A stretch of 16,076 nt of DNA from Candidatus Woykebacteria bacterium GWB1_45_5. GTDB lineage: Bacteria > Patescibacteriota > Microgenomatia > Woykebacterales > RBG-16-39-9b. Under the pieces are notes generated by a model. The model worked only from the letters and a program-made list of their open reading frames with translations, made no database searches and was not told the DNA's origin. The DNA lies in the NCBI GenBank assembly GCA_001816645.1, contig MHCO01000029.1, forward strand, positions 1 through 16,076, written 5' to 3'. The position numbers and the translations under genes are program-made. Of the stretch, positions 2,976 through 7,668 are shown piece by piece. How positions within the stretch are numbered: position 1 is the stretch's first letter; each line of letters starts with the position of its first letter.

Positions 2976-3002
2976 GGTGCTACTATCTAGAGGTTTAGGA
3001 CA
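2976..3002 (+). pseudogene. 5' half of an outer tRNA (acceptor strand + D arm)
   Basis: GGTGCTA (2976-2982), two linker bases, then a D arm (2985-3001) almost identical to that of the neighbouring tRNA-Glu: same 9-nt loop length and the same GGAC 3' strand. The first D-stem pair is a mismatch (A/C). The seven acceptor bases can pair with the acceptor strand of the 3' fragment at 3148-3154 (five Watson-Crick pairs and two G-U). What follows (3003-3022) is not a normal anticodon arm. See the 3' half at 3126-3158. Confidence 0.6.
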
Positions 3003-3022
3003 CATGGTCCCCTGCCCGACAT

Positions 3023-3099
3023 GCCGCCATCGTCTAGTGGTCTAGGACACGGCGTTCTCAGCGCCGAGATCGGGGGTTCGAATCCCCCTGGCGGTACCA
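3023..3099 (+). tRNA. tRNA-Glu (anticodon CUC)
   Basis: Complete cloverleaf. Acceptor 3023-3029/3089-3095 (first pair G-U, as in cyanobacterial tRNA-Glu), D stem 3032-3035/3045-3048, anticodon stem CGGCG/CGCCG with loop TTCTCAG and anticodon CTC at 3057-3059, 5-nt variable loop, T arm 3072-3088 with TTCGAAT loop, discriminator A3096 and encoded CCA at 3097-3099. It reads GAG codons. It lies between the two halves of another tRNA-like sequence. Confidence 0.95.
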
Positions 3100-3125
3100 A
3101 AGTCTTTGGCAGGCGGGTCACTCAC

Positions 3126-3158
3126 GAAACCGGGGTTCAAATCCCCGTAGCGTCACCA
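3126..3158 (+). pseudogene. 3' half of an outer tRNA (T arm, acceptor, CCA)
   Basis: Variable-loop-like GAAAC, perfect T arm CGGGG/CCCCG around TTCAAAT (3131-3147), acceptor strand TAGCGTC (3148-3154), discriminator A3155 and encoded CCA (3156-3158). No 5' part lies immediately upstream; the matching acceptor strand is at 2976-2982, on the far side of tRNA-Glu. The last acceptor base and the CCA also form the start of an 81-bp direct repeat. Confidence 0.7.
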
Positions 3159-3234
3159 TATTTTTAGCAATTTTTAGCTTCAGATTTTGTCAAAAAAAGC
3201 CTTCAGGCACTGTTGAGTCGAACTTCGAACCTAA
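3154..3234 (+). repeat. 81-bp direct repeat, left copy (starts at tRNA 3' end)
   Basis: Aligns without gaps to 7588-7668, with most positions identical. It begins CACCATATTTTTAG, so its first five bases are the end of the outer tRNA 3' half. Read on the minus strand it contains GTTCGACTC, a short GCC/GGC hairpin (loop TGAA) and seven T, a weak terminator shape downstream of the exchanger gene. Confidence 0.75.
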
Positions 3235-7482: not shown

Positions 7483-7593
7483 TCAGGGATTAACTGCAAG
7501 GGGATAAGCCTTAAAAACTGTACTCCAGTCTTTGAAAATCTCCACCAATTGATCTATAATTTCGTCTGTAAGCATAGAACTAAGGTTCACCAT
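7483..7593 (-). CDS. Micro-ORF copy A (36 codons)
   Basis: ATG at 7593, TGA at 7485-7483. The core MLTDEIIDQLVEIFKDWS starts at Met7 (codon 7575-7573) and continues TVFKAYP. A second copy lies at 9172-9282. Over the 25 codons from the internal Met to Pro31 the two copies differ at seven synonymous codons and only three replacements (V/I, E/D, I/T), the pattern of selection on a protein. It is amphipathic, acidic in the first half and aromatic in the second. No family recognised. A -10-like AATAAT (7609-7604) sits 10 nt before the ATG. Alternatives: the conserved tail of a larger decayed gene, or translation from the internal ATG. The 7706-8566 gene lies upstream and the sigma operon downstream. 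Confidence 0.6.
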   Translation of the reverse strand: MVNLSSMLTDEIIDQLVEIFKDWSTVFKAYPLAVNP

Positions 7594-7668
7594 ATTTTTA
7601 GAAATTATTAGCTTCAGCTTTTATTGAAAAAAGCCTCAAAGCACTATTGATTCGAACTTTGAACCTAA
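7588..7668 (+). repeat. 81-bp direct repeat, right copy
   Basis: Ungapped match to 3154-3234. Here CACCAT is the complement of the ATG GTG opening micro-ORF A instead of a tRNA tail. On the minus strand it carries GTTCGAATC, a weak GC hairpin and six T, downstream of the 7706-8566 gene, where it may act as a terminator. Confidence 0.75.

Follow-up and report, generated by a model that had tools for sequence, protein, structure and literature searches.

Palindrome-Borne tRNA Genes Nested in Resident tRNA Genes of the Same Specificity: A Probable In-Place Replacement in Bacteria

Introduction

How does a complete tRNA gene come to lie inside another tRNA gene, and what becomes of the gene that it splits? 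The question is raised by a locus of Candidatus Woykebacteria bacterium GWB1_45_5, where an earlier note, made from the letters alone, had described an intact tRNA-Glu between the two halves of another tRNA and had offered two explanations, namely a decayed host tRNA or a split RNA with unusual processing. In what follows, the window is the whole stretch of DNA that was analysed (16,076 nucleotides), the enclosed and the interrupted tRNAs are called inner and outer, respectively, and the whole arrangement is called a nest. The explanation to which we give most weight, with a probability of roughly 80%, is that a foreign tRNA, carried by a palindrome, replaces in place a resident tRNA whose specificity it shares.

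Structure of the Interrupted Locus

The resident gene is a tRNA-Glu(CTC) of 76 nt, split at the junction of bases 34 and 35 by an insert of 107 nt located at 3011-3117, all features described here being on the plus strand. Its 5' half (bases 1-34) occupies 2976-3010 and its 3' half (bases 35-76, with CCA) occupies 3118-3158, both being assigned by the joined length and by the identity to the corresponding tRNA of a genome of the same family (G005, see below). The insert is an imperfect palindrome with the ends CCTGCCCG.. and ..GGCAGGCGGG, whose loop holds a complete, different tRNA-Glu(CTC). It reads CCTGCCCGACAT, then the inner tRNA, then AAGTCTTTGGCAGGCGGG, being composed of a left arm of 12 nt (3011-3022), a tRNA of 77 nt with an encoded CCA (3023-3099) and a right arm of 18 nt (3100-3117). 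The start of the left arm and the end of the right arm are common to other nests and to empty palindromes.

The inner tRNA is the sole one found by ARAGORN in the window, in concordance with Rfam (RF00005, 61.3 bits), which confirms the intact tRNA-Glu between the halves of another tRNA. The outer halves are real as well, but the borders at first placed at 3002 and 3126 had to be moved to 3010 and 3118. Their acceptor strands, GGTGCTA (2976-2982) and TAGCGTC (3148-3154), pair over seven of seven positions with two G-U pairs, as had been described, and the pairing segments CCTGCC (3011-3016) and GGCAGG (3108-3113) are also present, now recognized as part of the arms of the palindrome. When the joined halves (35 + 41 = 76 nt) were run through a tRNA finder, as had been advised, ARAGORN still called a tRNA-Glu(CTC), despite the loss of U8, U33 and two stem pairs (10-25 and one of the anticodon stem), as read from the alignment with the G005 tRNA.

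Upstream, the promoter-like site of the resident gene pointed out beforehand at 2911-2939 was recovered as TTGACT-17 nt-TATAAT with 11 of 12 matches, two such sites being found in the 701 bases scanned, where 0.9 were expected. Downstream, the 48 bases directly 3' of the outer tRNA (3153-3200) are 88% identical to 7587-7634, in another gap of the window.

Identity of the Resident and the Newcomer

The comparison with related genomes, also proposed at the outset, provides an empty site. In G005, the tRNA-Glu(CTC) of lon-uppS-tRNA-greA is uninterrupted, and these genes have the same order and orientation as in the window, which has additional genes between the tRNA and greA. The syntenic tRNA of G005 has 76 nt, equal to the length of the joined halves, and is 87% identical to them, compared to 71% between the inner and outer tRNAs of the window; because of this equal length and higher identity, the outer tRNA is the resident and the inner one the newcomer. 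As 35 + 41 nt give exactly the 76-nt empty site, no target bases were lost or duplicated at the insertion. A tRNA-Asp or tRNA-Gly identity of the outer tRNA, which alternative junctions would yield (GTC or CCC), was ruled out by the tRNA-Glu(CTC) of equal length in G005. Together with the damage to the outer tRNA, the empty site lends support to a decayed host tRNA interrupted by another tRNA, and its equal length does not agree with the competing scenario of three tandem tRNAs whose outer two decayed separately.

A sister genome, G002, has the same nest and the same synteny, with an inner tRNA 95% identical to that of the window and an outer tRNA (L002) that is more damaged, bearing a D-arm deletion and an extra insertion. 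In the genome of the window (G000, 92.5% complete), no Glu(CTC) besides the inner tRNA is called. A second nest was found on the minus strand (L068, G000:C32:29736-29838), consisting of a tRNA-Val(CAC) inside a tRNA-Val(CAC) with the palindrome in the opposite orientation; its inner tRNA is also the only Val(CAC) called. Two further observations concern the same genome. At L213 (G000:C7:27318-27435), the 3' half of a tRNA, by eye similar to Glu, adjoins one end of the palindrome without an intact tRNA and is perhaps a nest minus its inner tRNA. Furthermore, Ala, Asp, Trp and Tyr tRNAs are absent from those called in this 92.5% complete genome, which may reflect either gaps of the assembly or the interruption of the genes.

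Distribution of Nests

Nests were searched with a pattern composed of arm, tRNA T loop and arm, in which the letters of the arms and their spacing are fixed, and therefore only part of the existing nests is sampled. Matches were obtained in 62 of 373 genomes of the class (one of the 62 only through L126, which lacks a tRNA) and in 33 of 379 phylum-wide genomes (two of the 33 only through the tRNA-less L178 and L179), the two draws overlapping by a few genomes, and the reversed pattern gave no match in the class and phylum genomes listed. From both searches, 112 distinct loci were read, 109 of them with an inner tRNA, and 13 phylum loci were left out. A scan of named genomes added at least 117 stretches, 115 with an inner tRNA, of which 85 were new (57 + 28) and 30 already counted. 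The nest layout is then present in at least 194 distinct loci, the tRNA-less ones having been excluded before the counts (L126, L178 and L179 in the first set; L240 and L260 in the second). As this many loci share the layout and the reversed pattern has no matches in the genomes listed, the layout is not due to chance. An intact inner tRNA was a selection condition of the locus set and not a result. Regarding the scope of the analyses, the calling of outers, the matching of loops and the inner-outer identity refer to 109 loci, the flank isotypes and the census of inners to 166, and the folding to 165.

Among the matches listed, tRNA-bearing loci belong to Candidatus Shapirobacteria, Roizmanbacteria, Levyibacteriota, Gottesmanbacteria, Woesebacteria, Berkelbacteria, Doudnabacteria and Kerfeldbacteria. 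Beyond these, they belong to Ignavibacteria and Bacteroidota, including the strains Hyunsoonleella aquatilis SJ7 and Flagellimonas beolgyonensis KCTC 23501, so that cultured marine Flavobacteriaceae have nests as well. The two tRNA-less matches of the named-genome scan, again among the matches listed, come from a Desulfuromonadaceae record and a Rhodobacterales record. In G167 and G599, one nest each reaches three levels, with a tRNA-Thr in a tRNA-Thr in a tRNA-Thr.

The Palindrome and Its Insertion Points

The arms have medians of 18 and 17 nt in nests, while the empty palindromes have 30-56 nt, with a median of about 37 (30 pattern matches), and occur at 0 to 19 pattern matches per genome in 15 genomes. 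Since both arms together have approximately the size of an empty copy, the nest resembles an empty copy whose hairpin bears a tRNA at the tip. The palindrome is found in both orientations, 58 and 40 times in the 109 nests, with 11 unclear. By eye, five of the 30 empty copies lie within seemingly interrupted tRNAs. A preference of empty palindromes for tRNA genes is not claimed, as five of 30 copies score at least 43 against tRNAs and the shifted controls score alike (4/28), the controls reaching this score because tRNAs lie near.

One empty palindrome was observed in the T loop of a tRNA-Met-like sequence (L138, 1501-1531). In addition, the dead outers of L052, L110, L228, L255, L350 and others carry extra short palindromes, such as TTTCCGCC..GGCGGA and CCTGCCTGCCGGCAGGCAGG, in their D, anticodon and T loops, a distribution suggestive of tRNA loops receiving hairpin DNA in general. 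Regarding the mover, the Y1 domain (PF01797) is present in 14 of 16 genomes, the transposase being undetected in G000 and G002, and a palindrome lies within 1 kb of two of 22 Y1 domains. A RAYT is at most a candidate for the mover, Y1 transposases being common in the class but undetected in both sister genomes and rarely close to the palindrome.

The main insertion points, taken from the 109 loci with base numbers assigned by eye, recur per anticodon: after base 37 in Val and Ala, after 35 in Thr and Ile, after 36 in Gln and Pro, after 34 in Glu, Trp and Gly and after 33 in Arg(TCG). Other insertions are in the D arm (GGTAGA|GC) and rarely in the T loop, and one motif shared across the insertion points was not seen in these 109 loci. 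The spacers are shared within some isotypes (Trp, Ala), and a single conserved cassette with fixed spacers was rejected as a general rule, as the spacers differ around identical inners.

Such recurrence per anticodon across families, as well as the restriction to genes of like specificity treated below, would be explained if ready-made nests spread by homologous recombination through the outer halves, and not by transposition of the palindrome. We consider this spread improbable, because both palindrome orientations are found at the same point (Val CAC, Ile GAT) and because the identical inners of Flagellimonas and Croceitalea differ in their insertion points and spacers, besides the fact that the first nest is left unexplained.

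Specificity of Inner and Outer tRNAs

The relation between both tRNAs was measured by matching the flanks of each nest to tRNAs, with its own locus left out and with scoring in the orientation of the inner tRNA only. For the 166 loci listed, the best match of the flanks is a tRNA with the amino acid of the inner in 157 and with its anticodon in 122, as also occurs in a further 28 loci listed (27/28 and 21/28, respectively), compared to 11/101 and 3/101 in the shifted control, whose flanks lay 250 bases farther away. The joined outer also contains the 7-nt anticodon loop of its inner, as an exact match, in 62 of 109 loci, the shuffles giving a mean of 3.7 and a maximum of 10. In the automated test of the amino acid, ten of the at least 194 loci do not pass (nine from the set of 166, plus L328), among which L037, L050, L120 (right half only), L228, L230, L255 and L328 look by eye like the same tRNA, and L176, L177 and L233 are too damaged to judge. 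In L096, with an inner Cys (GCA), the anticodon may differ between inner and outer, as the outer loop reads GTA by eye. A tRNA-bearing palindrome outside a tRNA of like specificity was not seen among the loci read.

The 166 inners of the loci listed comprise 31 anticodons and 13 amino acids, and none for His, Ser, Phe, Met, Lys, Asp or Tyr was seen among them. C34 types other than Trp and Met account for 79 of the 166, and many C34-type tRNAs should be dispensable. The pure rescue of an essential tRNA is weakened as an explanation by this share of C34 types. Selection for function accounts for the survival of a matching tRNA, but not for the missing palindrome-borne tRNAs elsewhere or in dispensable genes of other isotypes. 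The match of specificity would be due partly to selection for function and partly to some homology-guided step.

State of the Outer tRNAs

The joined outer is called with the anticodon of its inner in 42 of 109 loci at exact borders and in 50 of 109 with a freedom of ±4 nt; more than half of the tested outers do not behave as exons. These numbers bear on the split RNA with unusual processing, according to which the interrupted tRNA would be functional, the insert being a tRNA-containing intron whose removal joins the halves, and one transcript would give two tRNAs. The pairing of all seven positions of the outer acceptor strands in the window agrees with it, as do the outers called at exact borders and the position of the Val and Ala nests after base 37 (by eye), which is the classical archaeal and eukaryal tRNA intron site. 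However, over half of the 109 outers cannot be called even with the additional freedom, many have deletions or further palindromes, that of the sister genome G002 included, and U33 is lost in the outer of the window; moreover, the insertions lack a common motif, being distributed over the D arm, the anticodon loop and the T loop, and the two products would share one anticodon. A spliced split tRNA is then unlikely, and we give very little credence to a functional interrupted tRNA. A group I intron was rejected separately, as Rfam (E ≤ 1) gave no match to an intron in the window and the insert minus its tRNA has 30 nt; self-splicing introns are far longer than the insert of a nest.

Lineage of the Inner tRNAs

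For the 50 callable outers, the identity to the inner has a median of 73% and a maximum of 92%, while any two panel tRNAs of the same anticodon share 74%. Being at this background, the inner tRNA is not a copy of its outer and, judging from the sequences, belongs to another lineage. In two tRNA-Trp nests of different families (G151 and G277), the identity of one resident to the newcomer of the other nest reaches 93%, compared to 70-71% between their own partners; the opposite pairing gives 75%, no higher than other Trp pairs there, the relation being half reciprocal only.

The nest of F. beolgyonensis can be compared with close relatives. In its genus, 60 of 60 genomes match the 501-base locus in part, a few of them in the tRNA part only, and the 30 loci read comprise one nest, 28 uninterrupted tRNAs of the resident type and one uninterrupted tRNA of the inner's type (L351), which means an uninterrupted tRNA in 29 of the 29 relatives read. 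The F. beolgyonensis insert is located in the D loop, where the resident sequence joins without a repeat, and the outer further has a perfect palindrome replacing the anticodon arm and another palindrome in the T loop. Its inner is identical to that of the Croceitalea nest, which uses another D-loop point and other spacers. As seen by BLAST with the inner, three Flavobacteriaceae genomes have one intact tRNA-Val(GAC) each, which is the inner itself. As a separate observation, L351 (G754) has the newcomer-type tRNA-Val(GAC) close to this position but lacks the palindrome arms, representing either a simple replacement or a stage reached later.

The same anticodon and the shared orientation of inner and outer would both be accounted for by an in-place duplication, in which a tRNA was copied into itself through the palindrome and the copies later diverged. 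Nevertheless, this origin is highly improbable, considering that the inner-outer identity equals the background even for callable outers, that the resident type is constant in 28 Flagellimonas relatives while the inner is identical to that of another genus, and that, in the two Trp nests, the resident of one family is closer to the newcomer of the other than to its own partner. Lastly, most of the named loci among the matches listed derive from metagenome-assembled genomes, but an artefact of the assembly of metagenome bins is hardly conceivable, as the layout is the same in the strains F. beolgyonensis KCTC 23501 and H. aquatilis SJ7 and in sister genomes with shared synteny.

Proposed Replacement of the Resident tRNA

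The in-place replacement by a palindrome-borne foreign tRNA is built, at the level of the DNA, on the anatomy of the locus, the empty site, the recurrence, the isotype match, the damage to the outers and the foreign lineage of the inners. In the proposed sequence of events, a REP-like imperfect palindrome with a foreign tRNA-Glu(CTC) at its tip would enter the anticodon loop of the resident tRNA-Glu(CTC), palindrome and tRNA probably being inserted in one step. The resident gene of the window would then be dead and decaying, and the inner tRNA would take its promoter and its decoding job. We infer transcription from the old promoter because the left arm is too short to accommodate a promoter of the inner tRNA, and the shared orientation of inner and outer agrees with it.

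The paired arms may form a stem that aids the separate folding of the inner tRNA from the leftover halves. In silico, the probability of the inner acceptor stem over 165 loci is 0.97 alone, 0.87 in the nest, 0.68 without the arms and 0.60 when these are shuffled. RNase P and 3' processing are established tRNA biology, and this ordinary end processing would free the inner tRNA from the transcript. Regarding the added specificity, it could result from homologous recombination via the outer halves or from the insertion of single-stranded DNA at hairpin tips.

A broader proposal, which we regard as tentative and rather doubtful at present, is that of a tRNA-swapping mobile system, in which a single-strand mechanism, guided by homology or by hairpins, would direct palindrome-borne tRNAs into genes that share their specificity, where they would eliminate the resident and use its promoter; the swap would be repeatable, and tRNA alleles would cross species. 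A possible advantage of such swapping is that toxins or phages directed at tRNAs would miss a foreign tRNA body.

If replacement takes place in this manner, a physical route is added to those of tRNA gene replacement, where a gene is inserted in the resident, inherits its promoter and the resident decays. It would also give a meaning to the tRNA fragments beside intact tRNAs that are omitted by tRNA finders, and it is directly testable in the cultured marine Flavobacteriaceae. The question that it raises is how a palindrome of about 35 nt reaches a gene of its cargo's own specificity. A description of such nests or of such a route was not found in the open-access literature, subscription papers being mostly outside this scope, and the one match on nested tRNAs concerned, in the portion accessible, a tRNA within a protein gene.

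Comparison with Known Systems

The REP/RPE elements of the GTAG and CGTC classes are described, in the accessible part of the source, as short imperfect palindromes with several copies per genome in both orientations, some of them inside genes, and their mobility has been proposed (PMC3733652). Similarly to REP/RAYT systems, whose palindromes measure some 20-40 bp, the palindrome of the nests is imperfect and multi-copy, with the length and copy numbers given above. However, its ends, CCTGCCCG.. and ..GGCAGGCGGG, have neither the GTAG nor the CGTC tag, and, unlike REP, it carries a whole tRNA in its loop and is inserted in tRNA genes with the specificity of that tRNA. Unlike a MITE, the insertion occurs without target site duplication, both in the window and in the D-loop insert of Flagellimonas.

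Integrative elements at tRNA sites split a tRNA gene and restore it at one border, having an integrase and att direct repeats. The nests resemble them in inserting into a tRNA gene with a working tRNA remaining, but the insert of 107 nt has no integrase gene and no direct repeats at its borders, and it supplies a whole foreign tRNA inside. As for the mobile introns and split tRNAs of archaea, the excerpted account reports interruptions at several loop positions and introns that move between tRNAs (PMC10714607). Nests likewise interrupt tRNA genes at several loop positions; unlike these introns, their outers are often damaged beyond joining, and the insert itself contains a tRNA. Group I and II introns also occur in rRNA genes of CPR bacteria, according to the available text of PMC11270868, and nests are similarly inserts in RNA genes of the same bacteria.

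Finally, tRNA gene sets evolve by loss, transfer, duplication and anticodon switch, as summarized in the accessible part of PMC7661048. The nests agree with this view, as a horizontally gained tRNA would replace a resident one, the inner of the window being 71% identical to its outer and the outer 87% identical to the G005 tRNA. The difference lies in the place of arrival, since the gained tRNA is found inside the resident gene of the same specificity, which it would inactivate while keeping its position.
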